Assembly (NCBI RefSeq): GCF_000003815.2
Contig: NC_049984.1
Coordinates: 6,092,935 to 6,156,934, forward strand
Direction: 5' to 3'
DNA from: Branchiostoma floridae
Lineage: Eukaryota; Chordata; Leptocardii; Amphioxiformes; Branchiostomatidae
Length of the DNA stretch: 64,000 nt
The stretch's first letter is position 1. Each line of letters opens with the position of its first letter. The notes beneath the pieces are model-generated. The model saw nothing but the letters and a program-made list of their open reading frames with translations, was not told the DNA's origin and did no database searches. Positions 1 to 55,134 of this stretch are shown piece after piece. Position numbers and translations under genes: made by a program.

Positions 1-240
1 ATAGTTGGTTAGGGCGACTCTTCATTAACGATACAGTTTTCGTTTAAGCTACGTAGTTCTGAACTAAATCACAATTCAAGCACATGGCAATTTACTTGAA
101 TTTTCAATCCTGGTCTGGTGTCGATACAACCAGGTTTAGCACAGGGCTCGAGGGACGTCCCGTTGGTACTGTATGTACCAGTCACGGGTCACGTGACTAG
201 GATGCCTGGCTGAGTCATCTTCTCGCCTGCCAAGAAATTG

Positions 241-409
241 TAATCTCCAAGCAGATCCACGGTGGCGTAATATAGTATCAAACTCAACGTAGGATCTGCA
301 TCCATTCGGTTTCCGGTTTCCGGTGCCCGTTTGACTCCCTTTGACCGGCTATACTCCTTGGCCAGCTTTGATACTATCTTATGGCACCGTAGGATCTGCT
401 TGGAGATTA
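241..409. mobile_element. MITE, family A, with 9-bp target duplication
   Basis: The element begins TAATCTCCAAGCAGATCC and ends with its exact reverse complement, giving an 18-bp perfect terminal inverted repeat. It is flanked on both sides by AAGAAATTG (232-240 and 410-418), a perfect 9-bp target site duplication. At about 169 bp with no coding capacity it is non-autonomous. A 9-bp duplication is typical of Mutator-like elements, so that superfamily is my inference. Relatives lie at 14976-15136 and, truncated, at 58697-58738. Confidence 0.85.
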
Positions 410-451
410 AAGAAATTGAAAGATTTAGCTATCGCCTAGTATAAACAAGTC

Positions 452-653
452 TCCTCTCCAAGCAGAGGTTAGACAGATAAGACTCCGGCTGCTTTTTGAC
501 GTTTTTTTAGTCATTTTCATCGGGCTTTCTGATGTCTCCCGGCCTAGGCCGCGAGGCATAAAGAAAGGAAACGGTATATAATAGAAAGCCCGGGAAAATG
601 CTTAAGCCATAGAAACGTAAAAAAAACATCCGGAACCTAACCTCTGCTTGGAT
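452..653. mobile_element. MITE, family B
   Basis: Inverted termini read TCTCCAAGCAGAGGTTAG on the left and TAACCTCTGCTTGGA on the right, with no coding capacity inside. The outermost bases are shared with family A but the subterminal sequence and interior differ. A second copy is at 38337-38548. It is a non-autonomous DNA transposon, probably moved by the same transposase as family A. Confidence 0.7.
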
Positions 654-2777
654 AAAAGAAGTTATGCTTTCCCACGCGTACGGTTCCCCTATTTGGCCAT
701 GTTCGATTCCGGTCGGAGCCTAACGGACCTTCACATGGTGTTGGTATAACTCTATGTGAGTTTTGTATGCAGTAGACCGATGTATTTCTCGTGAAATGCA
801 AAGGGAATACCCGCGAAATCTAGCCTGCTATCTTTTTCTTCTCGTTTCATAAAATACTTTTGCTGACCGTTTTCAATTTGTGAGTCGCTATACACAAGCG
901 ACCTGGTTAAAAGAAATGTTAGCTAGCTAACGTCCAGGAAAAGTCACTTTTTTGAGCCTAAAAGGTGAAAAAGACGAGAAAAAAAAACGACCCAGGGAGT
1001 CTCCTATGGAGGCTATCTAAGAAACCTTAATGTCCAATTCCAGATGCATGTGTTTGGAAGTCGTGTGCCCGCCCGTACTTAGCAGCCCGCGTGGCACGTT
1101 CCCCACCCCGCTGGGACCAATGCGCTACCGTCATGTGTCCGGAGTTCGGAGTCCAGTGGTGGTGTTGGCGGAACAAGCTGTCATTTTTACTCTGTGACCG
1201 TCGACTGAGTATTGTAATCGGTCTATGTAATGAGTGTTCGTACCTATATTTCATATAAAACATAATGTCACACACCAGAAAACAACACAACCGACATAAA
1301 TCATAATTACGTCGCAGAGTATGTTACCTACGGTCACTGGTTTTTAATTGCAACACAGCTCTATCGCAGTGTTAGGTCGAATGGATTTTAATTTTGGATT
1401 CAAAATAGTTCTTTTGTCGCCTAATGTGCCTTATAGTGTTTTCAACGTTTTCCGATCATTTGGGAATATGGGTACATTAAGGTGTAGTGGATAGAACCAA
1501 AACAATGACATATTTTTTATTCATTTGTGTGTTGAGCTTTTATCTTTTTGACGAGATTGTTGTCATTACCTTCATTACATACTATAGGAGCAAGGTTTTG
1601 AGCTATGTTACGCAATCTGCTACAAATTATTCCAATAAGGCAAACCTAACTTTTTTTCAAAAAGAATGGCTTATTCAGCTTAACGTGCCAAGAGAGCTAT
1701 GGTGAGCTGATGTTGAGAGGTCCTGTTTAATTACTATTCCTTTCCTACTATTGGTCACTCGGTGGTCAACGGTCAACATTTGCACTTTCTGCATGCAGGT
1801 CGTTTGATAAGCAATTGGAGGGCTGTTTCAGACCGCTTCTTTCTTTTCAGATTTTGTCTGATGTAATGGGACCTTAGGAGTTAACAGAAATGGCGACTTG
1901 TTATGAAAACACATTGTTAGAAGCGCCACGGATTTTATGGACTTACTGTATCCATGTTCTCATCACAATCTTATTCAGGTCCGTTATGAGACATCTTCTG
2001 ATCCCTTAGAGTCAGCGAAAGTCGTCTGGAAAGCTGTCTAATGGGAGGAATGAGGTAAGATCTTTACCAAGACCACAGTTAATAAAATTATGCATAGACT
2101 AGATAGAAGGCGACTTTGACCATTCTCTATTCCATGTACTGTCATAGCCTCTTAACTATTCATATCCATTGTTTCTTTATTTCAATGTTTCCTGCGATCG
2201 TGCCGTTCCTTTGCTAGTATTATATAGTAGTAATAGTTTGACAGTGTGCAAAGGCACAATATATTTTTCATGCATATGGCTCTGCCTAGCAATGCAAGGT
2301 TTTGAATTATCTTTATTACATTGTTACAGCGTGAAATGTGCGTTGCTTCAAACAAAATCAAGTCATTACTTTTGTTGATCCCTTCATTAATAATAAATCA
2401 ATATCCGTAAAGACAGATTCCAATCTTTCTGAACCTGCAGTTTACGGGTAACACTTAGTTGTCTAAGACATGTCAGTTTACTCAAGAGATTGTCAAGAAA
2501 ATAGGGTAGCTGAATAAATATTTACCGTTTGTACATCAGAGAAAAAATGAAATCACTTACTCCTGCATCTATGTATCACATCCCTATTCTACTTTCTGAC
2601 CGGATTAAGAGAAATGACAGTTTCTTTTGACTGTTTTGATCAAATGTTTCTAAGGAACATGTCTCCTGCCTGCTCCATATCTTAATTCCGTTTGTCGGAT
2701 ATGCTTTTGTGACTGCTTTCCTCAGCTGTCAATCTGTGAATTTGAGCCCTTCTGGCATATAAGTAGTCCACTGTTGT

Positions 2778-2850
2778 ATGAATGAATGAATGAATGAATG
2801 AATGAATGAATGAATGAATGAATGAATGAATGAATGAATGAATGAATGAA
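2778..2850. repeat. (GAAT)n microsatellite
   Basis: About 18 near-perfect tandem copies of a tetranucleotide (AATG/GAAT). It generates the spurious minus-strand reading frame of repeated HSFI residues. Confidence 0.97.
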
Positions 2851-4082
2851 TTTTATTAACGTGTCATGCGTTAGAACGCCCAGCCCACGTGGGCTTATAA
2901 GACACACACAGTACAAATTATAGTTGAACATAGGATATTATAACATAGAAGAACGTTGTATGTATATTATGTATGTATTTATGTCATACTATATACAATA
3001 TGCAATGTATGCATAAACGTGTCTGTGCCTGCTTCACACCTTACCTTAGGCTTTCTATTTATTTTATGTGTGGGATGCAGTGTCATTCTTCATCCATCCA
3101 TTCATTCATTGGCTACAGGTTGCTACTCAGAGAATACCACGGATGGAAAGGACTATGAGAGGTATACGTAGTGAGCAAGTATGGTCTAGTTTCGCTCGCG
3201 CTGATGGAAGAAGCAGCTGCAAGATGTAGCCAGAATTGAGAGCGTACCGAAGGGCATGGAATTTGAACATAACAAGTAGATTCACAAGACACTGGCTGCA
3301 ACCAGGATTAACCACTGATCGACTGAACCATATCCAACTTACAAGTTTATTTGTTTATTAAGATTCAACACAGAAGTGTAAGGGTCGAGGGAACAGGTAA
3401 GGACACCTTTGCCGGCCCTCGCCCCGACTTAAAAATACAAGTGTGATTCAGCTAACGAAATATAGAAACGGTCCATTACTTTTATGTAGAACGCAGTTTT
3501 GAGTATAATCATAAGTTTCATGTGTTAGACGAACACAAACTGTTTTAACGTTTCCTTTTATCATCCTTTACTCCTGGGGTGGCTGGAAAGTTAAGAAATC
3601 GGCCAAATAGACGGATAACATGCAAGAGGGGTTTGTCCGTTATAGGAGTACATTTTGCTCAGGTCGGCCAATTGTAAACCTTTAGCGGACTAACTCCTCG
3701 GACATAATATCTGTCTACTTGGCCTATTTCTCTTTCCAGCCGCTTTTAATAGTCACAGCTTATGAATGCACCACGTATTTACTGATAGCGTCTACGAAAA
3801 TTATCATCCTTTGATATTGCCAAGAAGAGTAAGATATGTATTGTCTGCTTTTCAACACACCTTGTCATGTATGTATGAAAGGAATACGCCTACCTTGTGA
3901 AAGATATCGATGTAGTTCAAAATTGATCATCATAATTCAATGAGCTAAGTATCATAAACAGGTATGATTGATGACTACGCTGTAACGTCTTATTCAATTG
4001 AGTAGTTCTTTTGTGATCCATTCAACAGGTTGACAAAATATTTGTGCAAATCTACTTGTCATGTACTTTTATTTTCCCTAGT

Positions 4083-4460
4083 AGGGGCAGTCGCCCCATA
4101 CTGGCCCACCACGGGCGATTGTCCTGTCAGGGCAATCGCCCCCAGGTACTGCAAGGACTGACGGGGCGATCGCCCCCAAGCCCTGGCAGAGCGATCGCCC
4201 CCAAGCACTGACAGGGCAATCGCCCCCCAAGTACTGGTCACAGGGCGATCGCCCCAAGCACTGACAGGGCGATCGCCCCGAAGTACTGGCAGGGCGATCG
4301 CCACCAAGTCCTGAAAGCTACAGGGCGATCGCCCCCCAAGTCCTGACAGGGCGATCGCCCCCAAGTCCTGACAGGGCGATCGCCCCCAAGTCTTCTTCAC
4401 TCTGATAAAATCAAGACGAGATGACTGGACAATTCAGACTTTGTACGGGGCAATCGCCCC
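4083..4460. repeat. Array of GGGCGATCGCCC palindromes
   Basis: Roughly a dozen copies of the palindrome GGGCGATCGCCC (some decayed to GGGCAATCGCCC) are spaced 16-37 bp apart, mostly 22-34 bp. They are separated by a semi-conserved spacer resembling CCAAGTCCTGACA. The array is strikingly GC-rich against an AT-rich surround. It is a tandem minisatellite whose unit is built round an octamer palindrome. No coding function is evident; a minus-strand frame of 113 codons across it is an artefact of the repeat. Confidence 0.9.
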
Positions 4461-4584
4461 CACAAGTCAATATTCCTGGGACTTGAGTCTCTTCAAATAT
4501 TGCATTCCAATCCAAAATGACTTGATTTTCAAAGAAATTCAGACTTCGTTTTCTGATTATCACGTCGGAAAAAAAAGGAATAAA

Positions 4585-4638
4585 ATGGATTTTCCTTTAT
4601 TATTTTGGATTCTGTTATTTGTTCTTCCAATACAAACC
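4585..4638 (+). CDS. Candidate signal-peptide exon of receptor 1
   Basis: An ATG opens an 18-codon stretch reading MDFPLLFWILLFVLPIQT, a good signal-peptide core, followed directly by a GTACGT donor. Its position upstream of the first recognisable receptor 1 exon suits a secretory first exon. However, it ends in phase 0 whereas the receptor 2 signal exon ends in phase 1, and the next two expected exons (N-terminal helix and first beta strand) were not found. It is a weak candidate only. Confidence 0.3.
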
Positions 4639-5039
4639 GTACGTCATTCGGAACAAAAGGTTACGAATGCAACATAAACCTGCCTTCCAAAGTTCTTTAA
4701 ACGCCACAATGTAGTAAACTTTCATTGTTTAGAAGGTTACCCCAAGGCCATCACATTAAAAAGGCTCCCTAAAAACTAACTGGAGGGACTACCCTGAAGA
4801 TGTATAGATAAATAAATTAAAAAAAAAAGATACTGAATTTAAATAGATCTATTGATGTGGCATCAGAAATTCCCCAAGACATGCACACGTCAAGTATTTA
4901 GGTGTTCTCAAAAAGGCCTCAATAAGACCATGTGGCTATCTTAGATCTCGGTGGAATTATGAGAGTTGGCGCTGTGTATGTACAGCCGGATGTTTTGCCT
5001 CCCTTTATCATTCTTTCACCAATAAATGTGGTACACTGT

Positions 5040-5300
5040 GGTAACCGGTGCAATGGCCGAGTGTGTGGAGTGTTCGTCTTGCATTCGGTAGGCTGTGAAT
5101 TCGATCCCAGGCCGAGTCATACCAGAGGCTTTAAAAATGGTACATGCTGCTTTCTCTGCTAAGCACTCAGCACTAATGAGGAAGAGAATGGGAGCTAAAC
5201 ACATATCACTATGTACAGCGGACTTGCCCCCTGATGCACAAATGTGTGGCCCACGGGCTACAGAAATGGAGATGGGCGCCACCCTAAGCATCTGTTACAG
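5040..5300 (+). mobile_element. tRNA-derived SINE
   Basis: The head resembles a tRNA: an A-box-like TGGCCGAGTGTGTGG (about 5053) and a B-box-like GAATTCGATCCCAG (about 5098). A non-tRNA body follows, with a GGCTTTAAAAATGGTAC block and a tail near GGAGATGGGCGCC. It is not a functional tRNA because the arms do not pair and the B box is degenerate. Its 3' end lies about 55 bp upstream of the receptor 1 exon at 5354, so it abuts the splice acceptor region. Confidence 0.7.
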
Positions 5301-5353
5301 ATTTACGGGCAACTTTAACTTTTTAATAGATGTGCTACACGCTCTGTTCCCAG

Positions 5354-5565
5354 GACTTCCATGTGAGCATCCAACTGGTGGAGCAGTGGCGGGACCCTCG
5401 GGTGGCGAACTTGACGCAGGAGGAGCGTGTGCCGGTGGCGCCTGAGGTGGAGATGTGGATCCCTCATGTCGACTTCACAAACGCCAAGACCACCACGGTC
5501 ACTACGGGGGAGGACGAGACCTCCATGTGGGTGTCACGGGACGGCTTCATCAATAGAGCATTAAG
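5354..5565 (+). CDS. Receptor 1 exon: beta strands around loops D and A
   Basis: Acceptor TTCCCAG and donor GTGGGC bound an exon entered in phase 0 and left in phase 2, exactly as in the homologous receptor 2 exon 42401-42627. It carries VEQWRDPRV, the equivalent of RQQWNDPRL in vertebrate glycine receptors. Here the conserved Arg that contacts the agonist carboxylate is replaced by Val and the aromatic two residues before it by Gln. [11 protein letters not shown] matches the conserved W-P-D-x-F-x-N-x-K segment. The exon ends just before the Cys-loop. Confidence 0.9.
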
Positions 5566-8500
5566 GTGGGCAACAGACCTCTATCGTCATTATTGAAAGT
5601 ATAAATCATGATCCCACCTATTTCTATATATTGGAAGTACCCATATCCGTTCCTATAATTCTTGGTTCAGTCCTCCACGAAGCATGAATGATGAACCCCA
5701 TGGTTCCCAACCTAAAGATTTGCATGCAATCCTTTTATGAAGGAATGAGACAGTGGATAGAGATCCTTCCCGTATTGTTTCTTACAGACCACCATCAGGC
5801 AGTACATGTTGACACATGTACTATCGGAGCGGGAACATCCTTAGCACATGGCCGAAAATTTGAATGAATAGCTAGCTTTTCAATAAAATTTAGTTCAACG
5901 AATAAAAAGTTTCTCTCATTTGGAAACTAGTACTTCCGCTATCATAAGTGAGACAGAGTATAGTGCTTACACTAATGCGTGTAGAAAGACCAGTGGTCTA
6001 ATCTTTGTGTGTAAAAAATGCCAAAGTTCCAATTACAAGTTCCAAATGGCCGGAAAGACAGAAAACAAATGTGCTGAGGAACAGGCGGTTTGCATTGATC
6101 GTGGTGAAGATGAATCCCAGGGTCCCACCTGATACCTGTTGGAGGTGGTCATCACGCCGCTCCAACAGCTGCTACCCACACACATCAAACACTTATCTTC
6201 CGCCCAGAGCGCTATTAAGACACTCGTATAACATTTGTACTTCATTTCTATCGATCGGGCAAATTTGCGTCGAATTGATGACTCACCCTTTTAACAAGAG
6301 AAGTTGGTTAAGGACAGAAAGTTTCTGGTCCACAAGGTGTTCAGGATGATGCCGGCTCTGGTCCGAGCTGAATGAGGCCGAAGAAATGGTCGGGAAGAAG
6401 AGGGTGAGGAAGATAACCAGGTAGATAGATGAAGAAAAATCCATATAACAAATAAAAGAGATTAGAATCTGAAAATGATTTAAGCAATTTGCGACATTGG
6501 AAAGTTTCTGAGCAAATAGTATTCAGAATGATACTGTGGTCGCGGCTCTGGCAAACTGTACAAAGTAGGAGATATCTCATTAATAGAAGACATGTCTAGG
6601 AGGTGCAGAGTCGGGGAGATAAAAAACGAGCGGTTGGTGAAGGAAAAGATAACAAAAAGCCAGAAAAAGAGACTGTAGATAAGTCTCCTGCAATTTGCGG
6701 CAGAGAAAAGACAGAGTAATGCTGATGCATGTGGTCCGGAGCGATTACTTGGGGAGATAGGAAGCTTCTCCAAACATATCACCTCAAGCAGACTGAAAAC
6801 AAATCACCCTGTTGTCTCTTCGCAGAGATTAAAGCAACCAATTTGCGTCTGTAAGTAGGTGACATGACGGACACAACTTTTTGGACATTACCATAACAGT
6901 ACGATTGTCTGTGCGATACATTTTAAGCCTGTGCCGTGAGTGATGTACAGTTACTTTATCTTTGGGGTACAAATTGGTTTCTGTAACAGCACAACATAAC
7001 AATAGAGTGGTTTGGATAAGCTCTCGTATATGCACTTTCATTTCGGATTCGTCGAATAAGATTGCACTTAATCCATAAAAGGTAAGCTACTCTGCATTCA
7101 TAGTTCTCTTGCATTAGTGATGGACAAGCTTTAAAACTAGCTATACTTAGTTCTTCTAGATCCTGCCTCATCAATATATGGCCTGTGGTTACAATCATGG
7201 TTCTCGGGATGAGCTCGGGTAACTGCTCCGAGAGGTCTGATGGGATTAACGTCAGTGTGGAGATGGAGCGGGCACATTTGTTATACCAGTTCCAACCATT
7301 CAGATGTGACAGAAAGAGGTCACGAAAACGAGCCTTAGAAAAAACGTCTGATCAAGACAGCTGTGCACTTCCACTGAACATGCACTCAGAATGGATGGAC
7401 GCTAATCTAATCTCAAAGAGAGCAGATTGGAGGTTCTCTAAATGAGGGGGAGGTCGTACAAATGGCTACCAAGCTTACCATATGGCCTATATTCGTCCTA
7501 TTTTTACAATGAAACCCGTGGGAATATGATTTTTTGATAAAGTAAATATGACGCGATTGCCACTGGTCGATAAAAGGTTTTTTGTTTGGGGCGCCACCTC
7601 GTCCTTTGACAGTTTCGGATGGAAAAATCCAACTGAATATTGTACACACAAAAAAGTCGAGCCAAACATAGATATGGAATTACCTGAAATCTTGATTTTC
7701 TGTTAAACAGATCTTAATGTGAGTGAGAAGGCATTGGTATTGTCGATGAATGGTGGTCTGTATACTGTTTTTTACATGTCAGCCACTCCCTTTTCTTAAC
7801 ATTAAACTTCAAACGTACAGGGTATATTGACCTAATAAAGTATGTGAACTGTACAACTACAGTTCGAAAAGGGTGAAGGACCCCGCCCAATCCAGAAGGT
7901 TTTATAGTAGCTTATCCCCACATGAAATGATTCATTCCAAAGACTGATTGCTGAATGATGTGCGTAAGTGTGCAGCTGGCTGAACTCAAGTCAACCCATC
8001 CAATGACTAGGATTTCATGTGCTGCCTTGCATCATAACTCTGAATTTGAAAGGTCACATTTCAATTTCATTCTCTTTAGTAGAAAGATATCAAGGAGCAA
8101 CACCGGATATTGACCACGCATTATATCAAAACAAGAAATTCAGTCAACGGTATTTTGATGATTTGTTGGTACATTTCTTCCATGCAGATATGACATCCGT
8201 GCTTCCTGCCCGATGAACCTACAAAGCTTCCCATTGGACAAACAGCGATGCAAGCTCAAGCTAGACGGAGGTATTGCATCATACTGGTGACTTTGTGAGC
8301 CATTCATAAATTTCATAAATAAAGTTTACAATATCTAGATCTACTTTCAAGTAGCATGAACTTGCCAAGAAACTTTCGTTATAACAATTAGTTCATTGAT
8401 TGATTCGCCAACGAAATAAACCTTTTCATGGTAAATAAATTCGGAATATTTGCCGATGACCTCTTTATTCATTTGGCACAAAATGCATCTAATATAAGTA

Positions 8501-11500: not shown

Positions 11501-14500
11501 AATGAAACATTGACAAAATCGATTCATTTTCATCCTATGTTTGGGGGCCATCATTTCAGCTAACATGCAAGTGATTCACAAAGAAGCCCTAAGATAAGAG
11601 CATAAGCTACACCAAAAACAAATTGTCTGTCTTCTAGAGTACGAATTGCAGTATTGCAGCACGTACTAGCATCTGTCAGATGATGTAACTGATTGTCTCC
11701 GACCACAGTATCTAGTTCAGCAGGTAAAAGTCGATGAAAATACAAGATTTATAACAAGCTTCGCTGGTATCGAGAATTAAGTTTGTAACCTACTCCATCT
11801 AATATTTATGATGTCGGATGATCGAATGAGAATGAAGTCAACACATCTTTAGTATTAATAATAATACGACCAGGGACGTTGTCGAAGCAAGTTTCAATTG
11901 CCCATGACAAGAACGCGACAATGTATCAAATGCACACACATGTTATCGAATCATGCACCCTACTAACTTGAAGAGAGAAGGAGAACCAACGCAATATGAT
12001 TTTTGGCTCCCTGGATGCCCCGGCAAAAGTTTTCCCCTACCAACGACAGGACAACTCGCCTATCTAGCATATGAATGATTACCTTGAATTAGATAGTTAG
12101 GAATGTAACACCTTGCCAAGCGACAGAATTTCGATGGAAGTATGATTTTCTGATTAAACAAATTGACCAAGAAAGCTGCCGCCCCTCACTTATAGAGGTC
12201 AGTGCGACTCCCCTAGCTGACATGTAGATAGATTTTCCTGAATTACATGGTTAGGAACTATGAACCCGAACTTTGTGATAAACGGTGGTGCTATCCCAGA
12301 GCCAGATAAGGTAATCTGCTTAACGATCTCAAGCCTAAAGACACTTGGTAAAACATTCAACAACCGACCTTTTACCGATGCAGGTTATCTATCTTTGAGC
12401 AGACGCTGCCCGGAGAAGCAATGTTAAGCTCCTGACGAATGTTCCCATCTTTATACAATAGAAACAGCAGGATAAGGTCCATATCAGAGTCAGACGTTGG
12501 GTATGAAATATATATCTCTTGGTTACGATTGAAGAAACCCAATATCCTGTGATTTACCAAACTGGTGAAACTATTCACGGACAGTCCGACATTGCAGATG
12601 GCATCCGTTGTCTGAGTGTAGAACAAGAACTAGTGTAGTATAAACGTGTTCTACCTGTTTCCAACACCACTAGGTCCCACCAACTATCAGCAGAGACTAC
12701 TTCTGACATTAACAGTCCACTGATGAAGATGCTACCTAAAATGCATGACTTTGTAGGAGAACTTAATTACATTTGATTTATCATTTTGAATGATATAGAT
12801 GTATCACGTACATGGACATCTATTCTTCATATCAAGGCTATGCTCCCTTCCACAGTTGATGACGTCCGGCTGCAGTGGGGTTTCCCGTTCATCTGGACCC
12901 AGGACGTCCCGGTGGTGACGGACGCCACGGCGCTCCACTCACAGTTCAAACTCACCGGCATCACCACCAAGGCTTACGTCAACTCCTTCCTTCCGAACGC
13001 TAAAGGTACGTGTAAAATAGTAACAATTGATATTTCAGCACCAAGGCTACACCTAGGGTTTTCCTATATGCCGTATTTTTCTGTAAGCTATCCTCACCAA
13101 AACAGCATATTGGGGAAACGATTTTCCCAATAAACCTCTTCTTGAAGAGTAGCTGATACATGGATAGACCACTCATCCACGGCACTGAAGAAATAGCATA
13201 CATCAACTCAACGTTAAAGCTCAAATGTACGGCAGACTAGCAAACTAGCGGTAGCTATGAATCTTTATATATACACATATGTATATATATAAACAAAGTC
13301 CACTTTTGTGCATTTTAAGTAACGTATTAGAATATGTGGTCAATTGGAACATAAAGAGAGTATGGCATATCACGTCTACTTCAATGTGCTGCAGGAAAAG
13401 GCTGTACCTACGCGGCGAGCATGTGCGGTTTTGAGGGTGCTGACGACTGTCTGACCGACACCCAGCACTGTGAGGACGCCGTGGGCACGCAGGAGTGTGA
13501 CGGCTGTCAGTACTTCACTGGCACCTGTCAGAACCGGAGTAGGGACTGCAGTCTACTGGAAACAGGTACAGCCGAAGTGTTAAGAAACAAATCTAAGCTT
13601 TCTTCAAGTCTATGGGTCGACTATAATTGCGTTTATACAGCATGGCAACAGGCATTGGGCTTGGAAGTTGTACAAGTGTCCGTGCAGCACAGTACAGAGA
13701 CTATACTTAGCACTTACAGTGGAGAAGCTACTAAGTACATACTACTAGAGTACCTGAAACAAGAGCACTTTGCTGAGATGGCTTCCAATCCACAAGTCTA
13801 GAGGAGATGTGTGGTCGATTACTCCGCAGCCTTTGATTACTCATTTTGTTGTGGTTTTTAAGTTCAGCAAATCAGGTGCCACGTTTTTGACGTTGTGCAT
13901 TAAAACGTCTGCAACCTCAGCATTTACTTCTGACTGTTGTATACTGTCCGTCAGGTGACAAGAACACCTTCACAACCCTGGAGATCCAGCTGCACCTGTC
14001 CCGGCGGCTGGCCTACCACCTGCTGCAGATGTACATCCCCTCCACCTCCATCGTCATCATGTCCTGGGTCTCCTTCTGGATCGACATCGCCGCGGTGCCG
14101 GCCCGGGTTTGTCTGGGCGTCACCACCGTCCTGACCATGACGGCGCAGAGCGGTCGCACCTTCGCTATGCCCGAAGTGTCGTACGTGCGCGCCATTGACG
14201 TCTGGATCGTCGTCTGTCAGCTCTTCGTCTTCTCGGCGCTCATCGAGTACGCCGTGGTCAACTTCGTCTACAGATTCGGGGGGCTGGTGGTTCGTAAACA
14301 ACCCAACTCTAAAGCACAGGTAGGCCCGACACTCCCGACAAGTTCTTTCTTCTTCGCAGGCCACTATATTCTGTTATTCCATATCTTCCTATACAAGTTT
14401 CAGATGCCTGTTAAGAGAATGGCTGACGGTTCAGGAGAATACTTACACCTGGCATAAGTCATAACTAAGCAAATCAACATATGATGTTCCAGATGAATCA

Positions 14501-14945
14501 TGAAGTTAGCCCTTACTAATAAATACAATGTGCCAGATAGACGACCTTTATCTTGAAGGGAACAGGTCGAACGAATATCCTCAACACTTATCCCACACAA
14601 TGTTATTTACTTGCGATTGGTTGTCCGATATGTCAAAATGATTAGCAAGAATTCAACATAAAACAGTAATATAAGTAGTTAAACTTGCATTTGACTATAT
14701 TCAATCCCAAGTGCAAGAAGCATGGAGTCCGTTGGTCTACTAGTTCAGCATTTCAATTGCTGATCCTCCCTTTCTTCCAGGACCACGGTACAGATGACGT
14801 CACCGCTGTGAAGATCCAGCAGCTGAAGAACCCCGGAGACAAGGGCAAGCGGAAGGCTCAGACCATAGACAACGCCTGCCGGGTCATCTTTCCGTCATCC
14901 TTCATTGTGTTCAACCTGGTCTACTGGGCAGTCTACCTCCTTTAA
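5354..14945 (+). CDS. Cys-loop ligand-gated anion channel subunit (receptor 1), N-terminus missing
   Basis: Pentameric ligand-gated chloride-channel-type subunit of the plasma membrane (glycine/GABA/GluCl superfamily). Six phase-consistent exons were found: 5354-5565, 8188-8270, 12856-13005, 13395-13565, 13955-14319 and 14781-14945, giving 381 residues to a TAA stop. Motifs in order are the WRDPR strand, [11 protein letters not shown] (loop A region), the C-x13-C Cys-loop, M1 beginning at [13 protein letters not shown] before M2 (the anion-selectivity signature), M3, a short cytoplasmic loop of about 50 residues, and M4 ending YWAVYLL. Oddities: the agonist-binding Arg of the FLRQ strand is Val (LVEQ), pore position 2' is Cys, and an extra Cys-rich exon sits in loop C. 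The signal peptide, N-terminal helix and first beta strand were not located. The ligand is unknown. Family assignment is secure; subtype is not. Confidence 0.9.
5566..12855. other. Receptor 1 introns around the Cys-loop exon
   Basis: Apart from the 83-nt exon at 8188-8270 I see no further exon in these two long introns. Around 6319-6790 there are two weakly similar blocks (both start GAAAGTTTCTG and share TTCAG/AATGAT) about 180 bp apart. In the minus direction they translate to hydrophobic but unrecognised frames and may be an old duplicated repeat. The remainder is AT-rich sequence without identifiable features. Confidence 0.5.
8188..8270 (+). CDS. Receptor 1 exon: the Cys-loop
   Basis: An 83-nt exon between acceptor CATGCAG and donor GTATTG. 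It encodes [18 protein letters not shown], with exactly 13 residues between the two cysteines and the FPxD core that defines the family. The receptor 2 counterpart (43027-43109) is also 83 nt with the same phases, which strongly supports both models. The join to the next exon is shorter than in receptor 2 by about four residues ([11 protein letters not shown]). Confidence 0.92.
12856..13005 (+). CDS. Receptor 1 exon: beta strands 8-9, loop F, start of loop C
   Basis: Acceptor CTTCCACAG and donor GTACGT; phase 1 at both ends, as in receptor 2 exon 43295-43426. DDVRLQW matches the D-D-L-x-x-x-W strand after the Cys-loop, and the exon ends at FLPNAK where loop C should begin. Normally the next residues would run directly into the strand leading to M1. 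Here an additional exon is interposed. Confidence 0.85.
13395..13565 (+). CDS. Receptor 1 extra exon: 57-codon Cys-rich insertion in loop C
   Basis: 171 nt between acceptor GTGCTGCAG and donor GTACAG. It is symmetric (phase 1-1), so it can be included or skipped without a frameshift. It encodes eight cysteines spaced C-x6-C-x7-C-x6-C-x8-C-x2-C-x6-C-x6-C, with Asp/Glu/Gly/Thr-rich spacers and an NRS glycosylation sequon. Receptor 2 has an intron at the equivalent point but no such exon. Skipping it would join NAK to [15 protein letters not shown], a normal-looking loop C. The even cysteine count and extracellular position suggest up to four disulfides. I do not recognise the domain. Confidence 0.8.
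13955..14319 (+). CDS. Receptor 1 exon: pre-M1, M1, M2, M3
   Basis: A single exon encodes the strand [12 protein letters not shown]1, the PAR motif, M2 and M3 up to the start of the cytoplasmic loop, and leaves in phase 0 at GTAGGC. Receptor 2 splits the same region into four exons. M2 reads from R0': [15 protein letters not shown], so 2' is Cys, 9' the gate Leu and 13' Ala. The motif SYVRAIDVW between M2 and M3 is typical of glycine/GABA-type subunits. The region is visibly GC-rich relative to its introns. Confidence 0.93.
14781..14945 (+). CDS. Receptor 1 last exon: cytoplasmic loop end and M4
   Basis: Acceptor TTTCTTCCAG, then a charged stretch ([18 protein letters not shown], then KGKRK) and the fourth transmembrane helix [17 protein letters not shown], ending YLL and TAA. 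M4 of this family commonly begins R-x-x-F-P and contains F-N-x-x-Y-W, both present. Candidate polyadenylation signals AATAAA follow at 15477-15482 and 15657-15662. Confidence 0.93.
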   Translation, partial: DHGTDDVTAVKIQQLKNPGDKGKRKAQTIDNACRVIFPSSFIVFNLVYWAVYLL

Positions 14946-14975: not shown

Positions 14976-15136
14976 TTAGTCTCCAAGCAGACCCTATGGT
15001 GCCTTAGAGATAGTATCAAAGCTGGCAAAGGAATATAGCCGGCAAAGGGAGTCAAACGGGCCCGGTGCCAGCTATATTCCTTTGCCAACTCTTGATACTA
15101 TCTCTAAGGCACCGTAGGGTCTGCTTGGAGACTTAA
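14976..15136. mobile_element. MITE, family A, in the receptor 1 3' UTR
   Basis: Ends are AGTCTCCAAGCAGACCC and the reverse complement GGGTCTGCTTGGAGACT. Subterminal arms (about 60 bp, GGTGCCTTAGAGATAGTATC and its complement) pair to make the whole element a near-perfect foldback. It starts about 30 bp after the receptor 1 stop codon, so the mature transcript would carry a long hairpin. I could not see a clean target duplication. Confidence 0.8.
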
Positions 15137-18731: not shown

Positions 18732-20074
18732 CTGCAGGCTGGACTGTGAGATAGCCTGAGAAGCACGTCACGGCTGTACCTCTTCACTGGACCTTCCCAC
18801 TGCACTGGACCCTCCTGCTGCACCTCGCTCTGATCAGGGTGGTGGTCTGTGATAGGAGAGACAAAGGCTGACTGTTAGTAAAGTTTAGTGCACGTCCTTG
18901 TAGGCAATATGAAAGGGGACAGACAAATAAATGCAGAACAGTATATCATGTGTCTACTTTATTCTAAAGAGCTGAATAGTAGTGCCACATGGCTGGTGTG
19001 TTACACCAAAGGTTAATTTTACCGGCTATACGGCTATACTGAAGCTGGAGTATTACAACAAAGGGTGGTTCTACTTGCTATTTATTTATTCATTTGTTTG
19101 GCTGACAGACAGGTGTTTTAAACTGGCTATACAACACAGAAAGTTTTAAAAAATATGCAATAAAGACATAGAAGTTAAAGGAAAGCAAAACTTAGAATCG
19201 GAAAGCCTTCTAGCATAACTTTCTAAAAAAGTTTTCACTTGTTTCACATAAGTCGGTCATAGCGCTGACAGTTACTAGACTGATTGAATTTGGTGACCTG
19301 AGGAGGGGTCATGTCCCCATTAGTTCTGATCTTGCTCAAAAATCATTTCAGTTTTAAGTTTTCCTTTCCTTTAACAGTTATAAATCAGCGTACCTTCTTT
19401 CTTTTTTTCAAAGCCTCTTTTGAACTGAAGAAGAGGTTAATAAGAATCAGTCAGCACAGTTAGAACCTCACAGTAACAGCTCTCATTTGAGTGATCTTCA
19501 AAGACATTATCAACATGACCTTTGCAACCAATTATAGCACACATAAAATTGGAACCTTAATTAACAATCAGACAAAGGTGGACACACTTCAGGGCTTCAT
19601 ATACCACTTCATTCGCCTATCACATGATTTAAACTCAATGTTATTAAAACTACCGACACTGTAAATCTTGAAATGTTTGCTGTGGTCTAATTTTCATGCT
19701 GGCAATTCCAATACAAACTTATGACTGTCAAAGGAACTTGCCTCTTCCATTGCATCATTACTTTATTACAAAATTGTTTACAACCATGAACACAAAAACC
19801 TCCCTTTCCCTCCTGAATACAAAGATAAACCAGGAGGAAAGTTGAAGAATTTTCAGTATTTCCAGCCCTGAACTACCGTGGTGCATGAACATACCGTAGT
19901 AGAGTTTGGCAGTCTTGGCGAACAGAAAGCGCCGCTGCCCCACGTGCTTGTTGCCAGCCTGTCCATAACAGCCGTCCGTGCTCCTGTCCAGGACAGTCTG
20001 GTGGTACAGCGGGCTGAGGGGCTGTCTGATGGTGTTCACCAGGAACCTGGGCAGCTTGAACTGTGGTCTGGTAG
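18689..20074 (-). CDS. mxt: Mextli-like exons 12-13: C-terminal eIF4E-binding region
   Basis: Exon 20074-19895 carries a well-conserved-looking block (PQFKLPRFLVNTIRQPLSPL, then RRFLFAKTAKLYY). Exon 18846-18689 carries PVKRYSRDVLLRLSHSP. Y-x4-L-hydrophobic (YSRDVLL) is the canonical eIF4E-binding motif shared by eIF4G and 4E-BPs and should dock on the dorsal face of eIF4E. The last 13 residues and the TGA are encoded by a copy of the 49-bp minisatellite, so the extreme C-terminus looks recently acquired. Confidence 0.75.
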
Positions 20075-23000
20075 CTGGGGAACGGTTTAGGAACGTTGGA
20101 TTATTCTAAATGTTAATGTTCTCTACTGCATAACCAAAGTTTTAAGTGACAATTTTCAGTAGTCTTATGCTTATTTCTTCAGGACAACAAATAATGGCTG
20201 ATTGTACTTTATTTACAAATTTGGTGCCAAAAGGCTTACCTTAAGCATACTGAAGGTTGAAATAAACTAATCTATAACACTAGTTCACCTTGATATCCTT
20301 ACATTTAGATACACATTAACAATAGAAATAGATTACTCCATGAATAAAGGTAAACCAGCATTACCTGAAAATGCACCCAGCAATGAGAATCCTGGCTTCT
20401 CCGCAGTGCTTGCCTTTGTACTTCTGACACACTGCCTTTCCTCATGCATTCTGCTAGGAGATGTCACATCAACTGCTGCCTTCTCACTGATGCCCTGAAT
20501 ACCCAGACTCACAGGAGAACGTCTGCTATTGACCTCCAAACCATCTTCTACTACAGTGCTACAGCTGCAGATGTCTTGTACTGCCTCTGTCTCATCGGTT
20601 TTGTTGTTGTTGTTGTTGATAGTGTCCTCACAGTTGCTGCTGTTGTTGTTGTCCTCTGCACCTTCGTCTTTTTCCTCCCTGATGGTCACCAGGCCTGTGT
20701 GACTGCTCCTTGGGCTGTAGAACTCCTCAACGATCACATCTGGGGACTCGGGAGAGGCGGCAAGACGTGCAAGAGGACAGCAGTTTTCACACAAGGCGTC
20801 CAGTAAGTCATCCTCATCGCTGTAGTAGATGTCATCTTCGTTCCAATCTTCTGCCGAGCTTGCCGTGTGTTCACTGATACCCTCCTGGTCCTTCTCTGCA
20901 AGGCTCATCATCATCATCATCTCTGCAAGGCTAGCAACGCTGGAATCACTGAGGGGAGAGGGATCGTGCTCGGTTGAAGCTGTGTGGCGATTCTGCACAT
21001 CGCCATCCACAGAGGGAACGTGCTCAGGGAAAAAGGCAGTCTCTGAGAGCTCCATGGGAGATCTGGTGTTTTCATCCACCCAGCCAGCCCACATGGGTTC
21101 AATGGTCTTCTTCTCTGCATCATTGTCTTTTACACCATTTGACAGTGGAGTTGTGTATTGGGAGGTGTTGCCTTGTTGGCTACTGGAAGAGTTCAGATTG
21201 TCATGATGTTTTAAACTGTCTGCAAGGCTACTGTTCGCTTCAAGGGAAGGAGTTCTGTCTTTGTGGACCACTTCACTGTTAGTTTTCTGCTTGAGGGTTT
21301 GTGAAGCTTCACTTCTCTGAACCACTGCCTCTGGGATTGGGTCAGTGCCACCAGAAAAGGAGTTTACATCATCAAGTTTATGGGTGTTCACTGTGTTGTC
21401 ATAGATATCTTTCGCAATACTGGGTGGTATTCTGTCCTCATGTACCACCGTGCTACAAGAGCTGCTGTTCTGTTTCTCTGTGGGTGACAGGGCAATCTGC
21501 TTTGTCTTCTTTGTTTTGATTTTTCCACAGGGCACCTCCTTTTGGTGGTCAAACCCCACGTTTGGTTCCTTCACCGCGGCGAGCCTGTTGACCTCACTGG
21601 CCAGGGTCGTGTGTGCTTTCCACACAAACAGCTCCGAGTTGTCATCAACATCATCCCAGTCCTGGGAAAATTGGGTGGAGAAAGAAGAGATAAATAAAGT
21701 GCTACATCATACAACATTTCCAATTCTTCTAACATGTTACAATCATGATATCTGCTCAAAGTCAATATTACATATAGCCCCGTCGGTCAATATTAACCAT
21801 GGTTTAATTGCTATTATCATATAGCCAGGCGCCGCGGACCAATCAGAAGGCCCCGTTCCACGTTGGTTATGACGCCGTAACACTTCGATTCCGGCCAGGC
21901 AGGTGCAAATTAACACCAGTGGTGTTAATTCATTTTGAATTAACACCAGTGGTGTTAATTCATTTTGAATTAACACCGGTGCTGGTGTTAATTCATTTTG
22001 AATTAACACCGGTGCGGGTGTTAATTCATATTGACCAATCAAAAGGAACGAAAGAAAGGTATATGCAGGCATTGGCCAATAAAAAGGAGCAAAACATATG
22101 CCGGAGCAGACTGCAAGGGGGAATGGCTCCTTCTGTTAACATTGATAATGAGTTTTGTTTTTCTAAAAAGCCTGCAATGTTTCGAATATTTTCTGTGGAA
22201 ATTTTGGTTTCAAAATGCAATCTGTAATCTCCTTACATATGTATGTACCAAGTGAACTTTCAGAAATTCGACAAAGGAATTCACACGCATAGTACCAAGG
22301 GATCTATGCGTCATACAGGAATTTGCAAGTTTGGGTAGGCTATATGATAATAACTTTAATGCCCCGCCTTATCCTCGGTGTATATGGTGAGATAATCCCT
22401 GGTCAGGTGCGATAACCACCTCATAAACCACCTCGTTCGCTACGCTCACTCGGCGGTTATTGTTCTGGTAGTTGTCTCTGCCCAGGGATTATCTCACCAT
22501 ATACACCTCGGGCCGGGGCATTAACCCTTTATTCACATCAAAATATAAAATATTCACAAATCAAAGAAGATACATGTATGCTGAAATAATCAAAAGGAAT
22601 AGACAACTAACAGAACAATAAAATCTGGAAACAATAGAGGTGGATTTCATAGATAACGAAGGAAAAAGCAGCACCTAAAAACTGTCCATATTATAATACA
22701 GCTACAACATTCACTAAAGTTATGGTTGCTCAAAGAAGTGTGTTGTTTTAAGTTTGTGGCTGAATGGATCTTTACCAAGTCATCCTGCACATGTGTGACT
22801 GTGGGAGTGATGACAGGTACAGACTCAGGTACAGGTCTGGCAGGGAGGATGTTCTGATGCTGTCTGCTGCTGAACACAAGCGTTGTTGTCTCTTCTTTCA
22901 CTGGCTTTTGATAGGTGCTTTTTTCTTCAAGGGAAGCAGGAGACACTGAAACATAACACTTTCAAGTCACGCACGGTATACAAAAGTAGTTTTCAAACAA

Positions 23001-26000
23001 ACAATATCATTCCTGATTGAACTAGTTTATGGAAGAGTTTTTTCATTAAATATTTAGAGTTTATTTCAGACAACAATTTACACTATTGATTCTCTGCGAC
23101 TTGCAGGGCTCATGTATCCATACAGGGAAAATAGGCAAATAATTGGCACACGATCTGCAGCCTACCCTGCATCAATCATGACATAACCAAACTAACTCCT
23201 ACAAACCAATATCGTTCCATAAGGATTGCAGCAAATATTCTTGCTTCCCAAGAACTGTTGCTGACTGGAACTCAACACCATACATGTATAACGTCATAAA
23301 AACTTCAGACATGTAAAGGGCACAGTACTCCTACATCCGAAATTGCGGCAAGAGCAGTGCTGTGCAGATCCCTGGACACTTAACCCCAATAGATGGGTAC
23401 GTGCCTGATTGAACATAAACAACAAGATAAACCATTGCCTGTTGCATAGAGCCATTATCACAAGTCAGAACAACCAACTGATTGTCTTGCTGAGTGTCTC
23501 CTCCTCTTCAATAAAAGTTTGTTTCTACTACAACAGACCAGCAATGGACCAGCTTCCTGAATCCTGCTCAATGACAGTTTATATCCCTTCTGATGGCATC
23601 ATAAATATAGCTTTTCCTTGGTGTATCATGGCCTTCAGCAAATGAACACAGATTTTATCAACTGACTTATCTGTAACCTTTCTAAACTCCTCTGATGACT
23701 TTTCTTGCCGTTGATACTCCAATGTAATGAAAGGCTTTCCTACAAAGCACTTCTCATGTATTTCCACGAAGAGTTTCATCAGGTTGCTATACTAGTTTCT
23801 TCTAAAGGGATTTTGTGCTCCAATGTTTTGGTACCTTTTCATCTATCGTCCTTAGTTTAATGACCTCTACTGTTCCTTGCACATTTGGGAGCTGAGAGTT
23901 TGCTAAAACATTGGCAGACAGACTGAAACATTCTAAATAACAACCCAGTATATACTGAACACTAAATTGACGAAATTCTTAATGGAAATACATAGTGATT
24001 CTTTGTAGGAAAGAATGTTATTACATTGAAGTATCAATGGCAAGAAAAGGCATTAGAGATAATTTACAAACTGCATTGTATTGTGGCTTGTCTGTATTCT
24101 CTCAAATCCAACAAAAATGGCATTATCTATCAGCAATAAACTGATAGTCTCTCAAATCCAACAAAAAATTGTACACTTCATCAGCATTAACTTGACCATG
24201 ACATAAACAGAGGATGGCTCAAAAGAAGACTACTCTAGTGGTTCTTCCATAAACAAGATGACATCCCAACCTGTGCATCAAGACTAACAGTCAAGCCCAT
24301 ATTTTTAGTGTTCTTATCCAGGGGTAAGATAAAAAAACTAACAAATAAAAATCCAAACAAAGTAACTTAACATAAATGTATTTTCCTGGCTGAAAGATAA
24401 AGTGGAAATGAACAACGAAAATCCCAACTGGCTGAAAAGCAAATCGATAAACTAAAAACAGACAGCTGTGAGATCCCCTACCTTGTGTTCCATTCCCCAT
24501 CTGAGTCCCCCCATTATATCTGGCCCTGGCAGCGATCTTGTCCTGATAGCTGGAGTACTGGAGTGTTCCCCAGCTGTCTGCTGACTCCATGTCCCTTCCG
24601 CGTGGTCTGTGCCACACATCTGCTTGGGGCGGCCGTCTTCTCTGTCTCTCCTGAAGCTCCACCTCTGCAATGGCTTCCTCTATCACACCCACTGCATGGC
24701 TGGGGAGGACAAGGAGGAGGCAAGATACTGTAAATGTACTTAAGTTTGCGGAGATTTAATTTCGCAGTAGCGGGAAAAGGGACTGTTCGCGGTGGTTTTA
24801 AGTTCGTAGTAGCACCATGCACTGTAGTCTCTTACAGCCATGAAAAAAATGTTTGCAGTGGTTTTAAGTTCGCAGTAAATTTGCAACGCAAAAACCGCAA
24901 ACATAAAACCAAAACATAAAATTTCTGCATTATTTTACAGTAGTGAAAACAGGAGCTGGAAAATATTTTGGTTCAACTGTGTCCCTAAAAACTTTATCTG
25001 ACAGGCTATATAGCTAGTTACAACCAAATGTGTATGTCTATCTCACTCCTAAACTCCAGAGACATGTCCCACTTTCTTCTCTAATTTCCTCTGCTGTACT
25101 GGGTGGGGCTGACTCTTAAAGATCAGACAATTAACCTTTAATGAACACCTTAGAGACAGCACAGAGCCACTACATCCTGCTACTATCTGCGGGCAGGGAA
25201 AAATTCACACTCATATATAGAGTTAGGAATTACAAGACACAACATAGCCAGGTACATCTAGATTTCAGGTTCCTGTAGGATTTCTAGATATAATTAATTT
25301 GTACATTTTTTTGTAACAAGCAACTGCCAAGCTGCATGATGAAACTACATTGTATTTGTCTCTTAGTACTTGCTAGAAGAAGTGTCTAGTAATAGAAATT
25401 GCTCTATGTATACTAAGTGGGAAGTACTTACTTGATAACATCCTGACTTTCTGCAGTGATTCTCACCAGGCAGTCTTCACCCTCAGCATCTAAAACAAGT
25501 ATGACATATCTATTTAGTACAGTTATTGGGAACAACAAACACATTGATGATGGCAAGATGCACAAAGATGGCATATTGAGATATAGATGTTCATTCAATC
25601 ATTGTTTTCTTTTTGATAAATAATAGTTTGTGGCAGCATCGTTCTCAATGTAGCGTATGTGCTGCATCACCTATCTAGCAGTGGTCAACAGTGCTTTGGG
25701 GAAGGTACCAAAACAGGACTATCAACATTTTGGCATGTGCATTCTAAGTTTGTTACACAGACAAGAAAACTACATACTGACCAGGATAGCACTCTAGGTT
25801 AGCTCTACACCTCTGCTCCAGTCTTCTGATCTTCTCAGTTGACTCAAATACTGGCCAATAAGGAACAACAGAACACAGATCAGCTGTACTATGTGGCCCA
25901 AGATTAGCTGTATTGCTGCATTGATTTGACACGATATGTTGGGGTCACAGATCAGAGCACTTTCACTAGCAATCAGGGCTCTAGCCAGCGTCCGTTTTTC

Positions 26001-31157: not shown

Positions 31158-31252
31158 GGTGCAGGACAGGAGACCTGGAAGGTGGGATGAAAAAGGTCAA
31201 AATGTAGCTGACATCAGACTGATGACATCATATGCTGACTAACCTCGACATA

Positions 31253-42233: not shown

Positions 42234-45200
42234 GTTAGTGTTTGTGTGTGCGTGTGCATACACGTATGTATAACACAAGAAGTTGAATTGCGAATGCATC
42301 CGTTTGATTTTTGTGTATGTAAATGAACGACAAGTTCAATTATGGCCTCTAGCGTCTTTCCATGGAACTGCATCAAATTCCTCTATTTTTCCTTTAACAG
42401 GACTACGTCATCACGTTCTACTTCCGGATGTGGTGGAACGACCCCCGGTTCCGGTTCACGCCGACCCAGCCCAACCAGACGGCCCAGCTGCACGTGGCTG
42501 CCCGCAGCCTAGTCTGGACGCCTGACGTCTACTTCCTGAACGAGAAGGACGCCGGGTACCGGGCCTCCAGCGCCTTCACCAGCCTGCTGTGGGTCTGGCC
42601 GAACGGAGACATCCTGTCCAGCCAGAAGTAAGGTTCCATTTGCTCCAAAAAGTAGTCACTCAAGCAGTTTCTCAAGCAGACGGTCAGACATTTCAGTCAA
42701 ACATCACTTTGATAGTCTTTCGTCTGTGACACTGAAAGATAGTGGATGCTATCTGAAACGTCTGACCGTTTCCAAAATCATATCCAGTGCTTGAGACAGG
42801 TACTAAGATATATCTACTAAGGTACTAAGATATATCTTAGTACCTGGATGTCTGACAGTCATCGACGTAAGGTTCCATTTGGTCACAGGAAAAACTCAGC
42901 CTCAATACAATAAGTAAGCTGACAGTTCTGGTAGGGGATGAAGCATGATAGCTGATGTTTTAAAATGCCTGAGTATATGAAACACTGTTATTTCGTAAAG
43001 ACGGTTTCCTTCCGTTGCACGTACAGGAAGACGTTGAAGAATTCCTGCCCGATGGATTTCCGCATGTACCCTTTCGACGCCCAGTTCTGTAAGATTCAAC
43101 TGGGACCATGTAAGTACTTCTCTCATCGTCATGTACTGGTTGCAACGTATTGTAACTGCAAATTAGTCTTTCTTCAATGTGTTCAGCTGCGCCTTTCGTA
43201 CTAGAAACAACATTCTTTCCAATTTGATAACACTCACGATTTAGCTGTTTCGAAAACGCTATATTTCTTGTATCCGTGCCCCGTGCGCCTTCAGATGGTA
43301 TGACAACGGATGACCTGGTAATCGAGTGGAAGGAGCCGGCTGTGGAAACCAACCCCGGGATAGAGCTACCGGAGTACGTCATCGATGGGTGGACATGGAC
43401 GAGCTGTGGCGGGAACTACTCCATAGGTAGGTGGGAAGTAAACTACAATAAGATGTACGGTGTGTGGAACATGTGCTACACAATTAATTGGGCCTCCTCC
43501 TAGACAGCTAAGCTTGTTGTCGTTCACCGTCTAACTTCAGAGAGCCGCTCCTTTTTCCAGGCATGCACTAGTCAGGCTAGGGTTTCCACAGTGTTTTTCG
43601 TGTGTTTTTGAGTCTCTCGTGCATCTTTCTATTCTAGTGACCGCGCTCGTCTTCAGTAAGGGGTGCGGAAATATCCTCAGAGTATAGGAATGAAGTATCT
43701 ATCGAGGTGCTTCAGATAAATCTTCTCTTTCTTCCTACAGGTGAATTCGGCTGTAACCAGGCCACTTTCAAGTTAGTACGTAGTGTCGGGTACTACATCA
43801 CACAGACATATGTGCCCAGGTAGGTTATGGACGTCTCCATACTCTCCGAATTGTAATCTTTTAAATTCAGTCTATAAGCCAGATGCTAACCCAGATTTTA
43901 TCTGACGCAATGTTGGTACATTGTATGAATCTACATCGTAATCTGTTGCATGTATGTATTGTATACATCAGTCACCAGGGCTAGCTCTTTGTTTGCTATT
44001 ATGGTAGCCATAGCTATATTTCTATACAACCAAAGAAATAAATTCAATTGAATTAAGCTCTTCATCCGCCCATTGATGTACCGACCTAGTCTCTACCAGA
44101 CTGACTACGCTGGCCATCATTTGGAGAATAATTTGCCAGGGAAGTTTTGCTACCAGAGAATTTGGTCGGCTGCGCAGCGCAGTGTTTTCCGGAGGGAAAC
44201 ACGAACATTTTAAAGTTCAAGAAGCGTGGACTGACTCCTTTGGCGAATTTCCCGATTTTTTTGCCGAATTCTACGATCCCCGCACCTCCGTAGGAAGGCC
44301 TGGTGGAGACTACTACCGACCTATCAGATTTTTAACCTAGTACCGTGTGATATCCCCTCCTGCAGCGCGCTGATCGTGGCGCTATCGTGGCTGACGTTCT
44401 GGATCAGTCCGCTCCAGGCCCCGGCCCGGGTCGCCCTGGGCATCACCACCGTCCTGACATCCACCACGCTCACCTCGGCTACAAGGAGCTCCATTCCTAG
44501 GTAAACAAGAGTTCGTAGACCTCAGGCCTGCATGAAATGTATTGGGTTTCTGTAGACCTATTGTGTATTTTTGCCTTTTTGTCTGTGGTACGTGGTTGGA
44601 AAAATGAGCTTTTTACCGTGTTGGTTGTGCACCATGCAAAAGTCTGACTCTGAAATTCCATTTTCTGAATTTGTAAGTTTGGACATGGATGAACATTACT
44701 TATTTTGGATTTCTTAAGTATGTAACCAACCACAGTACTTTGAAGTTGTTGAGACGCTACCTTTTTTTGTCTCAGATGGCCCATGCACATGTAGTTACTC
44801 TGTCACATGATATACTAATATCTTCCTATTTCAATGTACTGACCTAATGCAGCTGCTAAGTCTCCTTGGTTTGTGTTCTTCCAATGATATTCATTAAAGA
44901 TTTATTTCTGGGGTGTTATTCACTTGACATCGGAATGTTACTCGCATAATTTGACCAATGATACTTTTATCTGTAGTTCCATAGACATTAGACAATATGA
45001 ATAGTGGTAGCCCCCATGCAGCAGCAACAGTTAGTCCCCAGGGTGGTATGATATTTTCATTCAATCCATCCAACCCAAACCTAAATCTCCTGTAGTATCT
45101 AAGCCAAATTTAACAGCACAATTTACTATGAAAAATGTCCTTGTCAATCCCATTTATAGATGGCAAGCTGCTGGCAATGGAAGCTTTGAAAAGTTCAGAA

Positions 45201-54000: not shown

Positions 54001-55134
54001 TGACCAACTTTTACTATTTTTCCAGCAACCCATGGAGTCTGGTAGAGACTGCTGCAGACGCACCAGGACTTGCCACGGCCCACGGCTGCAGGATGGACTG
54101 TAAGTCGTACAGCGGGGAGTCAGACCTCACCAGGTCAGCCGTGAACAGCCGGATGTGGGGATAGTCAGCAGCGCGGGCGATCTCAGCACTGGCGTTGGTA
54201 GTCTGGGATGGCAGAGATACAGGTCGACAAATCAGGTGCACTATCTAAAACGTACACGTCTAACACCATGTGTAGCGTTCGTAGTCAAGTGGTTAGCCAT
54301 CCTGATTCTGGACCAGAAGTGTGGGTGCTCAAATCCCGGATGTGTCGCTCGACAGACGCGGACGCTACTGTAAAGAGCTGCAGTCCCCAGGACTAGGCAC
54401 TAAGACGTGGCGTACTGTTCAGTTACTGCCAAGAACAGCTAGAGGAATTCAATACGGTACCCTAAGTAATGTACATATCGTCTGTTTGATCCGTCGCGAC
54501 CAGTGTAAGATAAACTGTCTGTGAGATAAACTGATTAAAGATCACTTTCACTTCAGTTTTTATACCCGACTTAAGGTATGGTTTCAAATTCGTCCCATAT
54601 CAACCACTTTCTTTTGTTAAAACGAACTTATAACCCATTCTTATCTATATTGTTTTTATGCGTAATACCACAAAAAGAAGAGGTTCTTACATATTTCATA
54701 GTAAAAACCATGTTGCTCTGTCCGCTGCACAGCCACACGTCCCCGAATAGCACGTCCTTCAGCACCAAGGACAGTCTCTGCCCCGCAGCAGTCTGCACGG
54801 CCTCCACGGTGTGCGGTCCCCCCGCCGGCATGGCGTCTAGAGTCACCTTCCACACTCCCTTACCCGCAGGACCTGCACGTTAGACACACAAGCGGCATGT
54901 GTGGGGAGATTGAAATCAGATTTAAAGGTTGCTGTTGTGGGATCTGAACTATATAAAAACGGAGGTATCACAGAAATCCGAAAGGTGGTCCATTATCAAA
55001 CTTGTTTTGCCAACACCTACAAGGTTTGTATCCACGTAACAAATACGGATATCATATGAATCCATTGACACCTTCTTGAGTCATAAACGAATCACGTACA
55101 CAAACACACACACGCACACGCACATACACACATA

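Follow-up and report, generated by a model that had tools for sequence, protein, structure and literature searches.

In the Cys-loop superfamily, agonist recognition centres on the closing motion of loop C. A cysteine-rich exon within this very loop of a lancelet channel gene raises two questions, namely whether the exon belongs to the gene at all and, if so, what a domain at that place is for. The gene, hereafter gene A, lies in a window of 64,000 nucleotides (C6:6092935-6156934) that also contains a related channel gene, paralogue B. Our preferred answer, to which we give a probability of about 0.6, is that gene A is one of about 25 Cys-loop channel genes, related to glycine (GlyR) and GABA receptors, that form a clade in which an unclassified disulfide-rich domain caps loop C and serves a non-classical ligand or partner.

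The loop C exon and its host gene

The recognised exons of gene A lie on the + strand and begin with that for loops D, A and E of the ligand-binding domain (5354..5565), which is supported by splice sites, translation and a phmmer match to GlyR alpha. It is followed by an 83-nt exon with the Cys-loop, C-x13-C (8188..8270), equal in length to its counterpart in paralogue B, by an exon with an altered loop B, loop F and beta9 that ends in phase 1 (12856..13005), and by the loop C module exon itself (13395..13565). The remainder of loop C, M1, M2 and M3 are encoded by 13955..14319, and the end of the cytoplasmic loop, M4 and the stop codon TAA by the last exon (14781..14945). The first exons, for the signal peptide and the first strand, were not found by reading the open reading frames in positions 1-5353 of the window. 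Without the module exon, the closest PDB sequences to gene A are the glycine receptors alpha-2, alpha-3 and alpha-1 (best E 3e-60); in phmmer M1-M3 match GlyR strongly and M4 weakly. The transmembrane region is identified as PF02932 (E 1e-24) and, as in vertebrate GlyR alpha, a PAR motif precedes M2 (VPARVCLG), pointing to a pore that is probably chloride-selective. Further, 60 of 92 transmembrane residues are identical to alpha-2, whereas the extracellular part is identical at only 45 of 155.

The module exon measures 171 nt (57 codons), is in phase 1 at both ends, is bounded by splice dinucleotides and encodes eight cysteines spaced C-x6-C-x7-C-x6-C-x8-C-x2-C-x6-C-x6-C in the translated frame, all as the first-pass annotation had described it. 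The translation also has a sequon, NRS, and a net charge of -7. When gene A with the exon included was compared with GlyR alpha-3 in HMMER, one block of the match ended at query residue 119 (GlyR 177) and the next started at query residue 209 (GlyR 205), where the GlyR sequence reads GKFTC. The 89 query residues 120-208, of which the module makes up 149-206, are opposite only 27 GlyR alpha-3 residues (178-204). The block boundaries thus place the module in loop C, where the first reading of this Cys-loop channel had put it. A tandem duplication of the intron was rejected as the origin of the arrangement: the two flanking introns are both 389 nt long and dissimilar, with a local score of 12 vs a shuffle mean of 13.2 and 165 of 200 shuffles scoring as high.

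The GC content of the module exon is 59%, that of the other exons of gene A 51-60% and that of the introns 37-43%, and of the three coding-strand frames only the translated one is open. Eight or more cysteines in 57 codons have a probability of ~2e-4 from the base composition. On a rough splice matrix, the acceptor ranks first among the 70 AGs of 13006-13954 and the donor joint second of the 67 GTs, tied with 13469; the top-ranked GT is that where the next exon begins. An open phase 1-1 stretch with at least eight cysteines also occurs at three other sites within the 64-kb window, and 10 random strands of 64 kb contained three clusters of this kind; by itself, without paralogues, such a stretch is weak evidence of an exon. 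The proof is instead comparative: exon 13395-13565 is real and coding because the exon and its conserved cysteines recur in 22 other clear genes.

Paralogue B provides a module-less control in the same window. Its 83-nt Cys-loop exon (43027..43109, + strand) is followed by an exon with loop B, PYGMTTDD, and the first half of loop C (43295..43426, + strand), which ends in phase 1, and by one with the second half of loop C (43741..43819, + strand). The phase-1 intron that corresponds in position (43426/43741) holds no candidate exon with five or more cysteines. The earlier observation of an intron at the same point and phase with no module exon was thus correct, while the distance between the genes is 30.4 kb and not the 27 kb first given.

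A module family in the lancelet genome

The 513,431,437-base assembly was searched with three modules as queries (E limits of 10, 1 and 1), and all counts for the genome are lower bounds. Among 22 distinct places found, 21 are channel genes, the exception being a weak partial match on C11 (L047) with no nearby channel exon. Two more copies (L016 and L018) were recovered by tblastn in loci from a transmembrane search, and at least 23 clear channel genes, gene A included, carry the module. The M1 exon, which starts within the latter half of loop C, lies directly downstream of the module in 23/23 (in one, L064, by a separate reading), and a phase-1 acceptor and donor adjoin the module in 23/23, phase 1 being the only phase that the script sought; in three copies the donor past the last cysteine came from a separate reading. 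The upstream loop F/beta9 exon was recognised in 16 of these genes and not in the other seven. A 24th copy is L066 (C6:7246875, profile E 1.2e-6), and the 25th, in L026, is degenerate (profile E 1.3) and recognised mainly by position. No copy outside channel genes and no shuffling donor was found in the module searches of this genome.

On C6, four module genes, gene A among them, share a span of about 150 kb, with a further group located at 7.21-7.25 Mb. The modules at C6:1537998 and C6:1401401 have a single synonymous difference and encode the same protein; they may be a recent duplicate or an assembly duplicate. In a number of module genes, C6:7239203, C6:7232066, C6:1395695 and C137:169021 among them, the region matched to M1-M2 contains stops, which may be exon ends or signs of broken genes. 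In L026 (C9:22206000-22215900), the start of the M1 exon occurs three times in tandem over positions 6691-7819. The last of these repeats includes M2, of which an additional partial copy is also present, and L024 shows similar repeated M2 pieces. The repeated M1/M2 pieces of L026 are possibly mutually exclusive channel exons.

A tree of the M1-M2 exon (~60 aa) separates 25 module genes from seven module-less sequences, namely gene B, L011, L012, L065, L067, L068 and the PDB GlyR alpha-2, with a UFBoot support of 94. For L065, L067 and L068 the absence of the module was read over some 1.8 kb that precede M1. Most branches within the module side have low support. A preceding tree that included three further sequences as outgroups placed GluCl among the module genes with a support of 46, so that the position of GluCl relative to the module clade is tentative. 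The notion of a one-off exon in one channel has to be abandoned, since the module is common to about 25 genes on one side of the split; it is therefore old, and the exon is probably constitutive in these genes. As judged by comparison of sequences, the loop C module is a hallmark of a channel clade and not an optional exon of one gene.

Conservation within the module was read from an alignment that covers 16 copies out of 23. The other seven (C6:1401401, C6:7224774, C6:7239639, C6:7232545, C14:9440164, C137:167984 and C5:21851816) were identical or found later, and were taken into the surveys of exons, dN/dS and cysteine counts. Columns C4, C11, C19, C38, C45, C52 and G43 are invariant in the alignment, and Y6 is nearly so. 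Eight cysteines are present in 21 of the 23 copies and six in the other two, both of which are without the fourth and fifth. Their joint loss suggests that these two cysteines pair with each other in a disulfide bond, predicted as C26-C35. An N-glycosylation sequon is found in 19/23 copies and the net charge ranges from -11 to +2 over the 23. Seven pairs were compared for dN/dS and five were usable, giving 0.27 (the window copy vs C6:6043531), 0.16, 0.12, 0.10 and 0.20, where the pair at 0.10 has a dS of 2.07 and is near saturation; one unusable pair had a single substitution and the other was saturated. The module is under purifying selection. Conservation of the cysteines, which had been set beforehand as a refuting test, held among paralogues of the same genome.

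Searches for the identity of this domain returned no relatives. The window copy had no Pfam or NCBIfam match at E 10, a Pfam scan of the 16 copies gave a best E of 0.32 spread over seven unrelated families, no PDB chain matched the module at E 10 by sequence or profile, and viral and prokaryote scans found nothing related. The tail, C-x2-C-x6-C-x6-C, resembles the pattern of the PSI domain, a reading that was dropped as it has no Pfam support. A single-sequence AlphaFold model of the lone module had a pLDDT of 43.5 and no usable fold. With no convincing match among these searches, the module appears to be a disulfide-rich domain of about 45-60 aa that belongs to no classified family. A description of a cysteine-rich domain in loop C was likewise not found in the open-access literature, most subscription papers being outside its reach.

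A remade agonist site and what it may recognise

The first-pass annotation proposed that alternative splicing of the exon could let the subunit alternate between canonical and modified receptor forms, a proposal that bears on the state of the remaining agonist site. The glycine contacts, in GlyR numbering, are F63, R65, F99, E157, F159, Y202 and F207. Thirteen GlyR loop positions were compared on this numbering, their choice following PMC13335744 and PMC4006026. Gene A matches GlyR at only one of the thirteen, F207. The five aromatic-box positions read Q, D, gap, L and F, the loop D arginine (R65) is V, E157 is D, and the two cysteines of the loop C disulfide, C198-C209, are V and T. The shape of the loop B loss varies with the aligner, a 4-residue deletion in MAFFT and gaps elsewhere in phmmer, and the aromatic is missing in either. 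Paralogue B is identical to GlyR at 6/13 positions, is aromatic at 5/5 box positions and keeps R65; it differs at E157 (G), S158, Y161 and T204. Because 12 of 13 loop positions of gene A, the loop C disulfide included, differ from GlyR alpha, the protein formed by skipping the exon is not canonical, and the proposed alternation with a canonical form is not supported.

Other module genes follow the same pattern. The loop D aromatic and arginine and the loop A aromatic are lost in all six module genes read (gene A and L020-L024); of eight paralogous loci searched five were positive, and no loop D/A exon was found in L025, L026 and L027. In five of the six, including gene A and with L024 as the exception, loop A reads PH[VI]DF. 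This conserved substitute suggests that the site has been re-specified and has not decayed. The loop C cysteine of the M1 exon is absent in 25/25 module genes and present in 6/7 module-less sequences, and thus the bracing of loop C may have passed to the module. Several distant module genes are without the PAR proline (for example SARITIG), and L043, L044 and L045 (on C9, C14 and C137) read SSAR/TSAR, so that ion selectivity may vary inside the clade. Collectively, the sequences suggest that the module receptors have been remade to sense something besides glycine or GABA.

Precedents for extra peptides in this loop exist in insects. The first-pass statement that loop C tolerates only short variation is contradicted by the loop C insertions of insect GRD and pHCl (PMC2064938): Tribolium GRD variants gain a loop C peptide via differential splice-site use, a stretch of 75 aa occupies the corresponding position in fly GRD, and an insertion in loop C is also present in pHCl variant 4 of beetle and bee (PMC2064938), although this variant was not predicted among small hive beetle proteins (PMC7017565). 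Gene A resembles GRD and pHCl in having an extra peptide inside loop C. However, the text consulted describes neither a cysteine-rich loop C domain nor a multi-gene clade for these channels (PMC2064938). A different likeness is with the cephalopod chemotactile receptors and Alpo4, Cys-loop receptors that have lost the signature ligand motifs and on which other ligands act or are proposed to act; these are nicotinic-like, and the text consulted mentions no loop C domain (PMC10338036). As to origin, the module shares a symmetric phase-1 exon and, by position, an extracellular location with class 1-1 shuffled metazoan modules (PMC8001218), and frequent exon shuffling with a 1-1 phase bias has been reported in lancelets (PMC4284660). 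Unlike such modules, it is seen in this genome only in the loop of one channel family and matches no Pfam family, and no donor gene for it was found.

The history that would fit best begins with a single ancestral acquisition of the module into a pre-existing phase-1 intron of loop C, probably by exon shuffling (for which PMC8001218 and PMC4284660 provide the background), after which gene duplication would have spread the module-bearing channels. The domain would fold autonomously from a constitutive exon and brace loop C in place of the lost disulfide. Seated at the loop tip, it would form an outward cap and contribute to the surface that recognises either a ligand, neither glycine nor GABA, or a partner protein, and in gene A this recognition would gate a probably chloride-selective pore, perhaps in a subunit of a heteromer. 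A bolder version, which we regard as rather improbable, has the clade as a repertoire of ligand-gated anion channels in which proteins, peptides or environmental ligands are recognised chiefly by the captured domain; if true, this repertoire would be the chordate counterpart of the cephalopod chemotactile receptors. In either case, a clade of about 25 genes with an extra loop C domain, and with the classical contacts lost in the six read, amounts to a natural experiment on remaking a gate. The clade points to an undescribed domain and makes the ligands of these channels testable in a chordate, the lancelet, whose place is near the vertebrate root.

Other readings of the locus have to be set against this one. 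The module might hold an extracellular partner or the matrix and have no role in gating, with its bearer a non-agonist-binding accessory subunit of heteromers. The loss of classical agonist contacts and the purifying selection on the module would suit such a structural part, as would the insect example: GRD, whose loop C in the fly contains an unusual stretch of 75 aa, combines with LCCH3 into heteromeric cation channels (PMC2064938). The loop A motif shared by five of six genes is not random, however, and suggests a working, re-specified pocket, and about 25 diverse genes would resemble a receptor repertoire over one accessory subunit; we consider this reading somewhat unlikely. Less probable still is a module folded over its own or the adjacent pocket that keeps the channel open or closed. 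Its location at the agonist cap and the disulfide-rich, acidic character of the window copy (-7) are compatible with the idea, yet a charge that varies so widely over the 23 copies speaks against it and occupation of the pocket has no direct support, so that we hold it to be quite improbable.

An exon whose splicing toggles the subunit between a canonical neurotransmitter receptor, when skipped, and a modified one, when included, is in our view unlikely. The symmetric 171-nt exon would leave the frame intact if skipped, three of the four remaining donors in gene A outscore that of the exon on the rough matrix used above, and loop C insertions are spliced in insect GRD and pHCl (PMC2064938); but the skipped form would still be far from GlyR in its loops, and an exon with conserved cysteines in 23 clear genes suggests constitutive use. 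There is finally the prospect that the exon is non-coding or cryptic, or the product of a pseudogene or an assembly error. Chance cysteine-rich open stretches do occur in the window, some other module genes have stops within the region matched to M1-M2, as described above, and another group has ascribed much of the domain novelty of lancelets to gene-model errors (PMC4967905). That criticism does not easily apply to an exon shared by 23 genes. A chance or cryptic exon was ruled out by the genome search for module copies, and with exon, place, phase and cysteines repeated in 22 further genes of this genome and a module dN/dS well under 1, the chance of an artefact of any kind is very small. The preferred reading remains that of a channel clade whose loop C is capped by the module.

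Other features of the window

Open stretches with 5-6 cysteines were seen upstream in gene A and within its intron 5566-8187. Just past the stop codon of the gene lies a fold-back element (14978-15133) with 42-nt arms that are 98% complementary; a related second copy is located near the start of the window, at about 320-406, and the pair looks MITE-type. GC-rich tandem repeats around 'gcgatcgcc' occupy 4081-4450. On the - strand, 19761-31196 contains an open reading frame of 457 aa (20336-21706) and other fragments, none over the Pfam cut-off, one of which may resemble MIF4G proteins. Also on the - strand, 50941-55446 contains fragments with a likeness to a sialate O-acetylesterase gene; the SASA domain scored E 0.0055, below its cut-off. 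A run of 100 N, either an assembly gap or a withheld stretch, is found at 60423-60522, and on the + strand an exon at 58764-59027 encodes a chromodomain (PF00385, E 5.7e-18).
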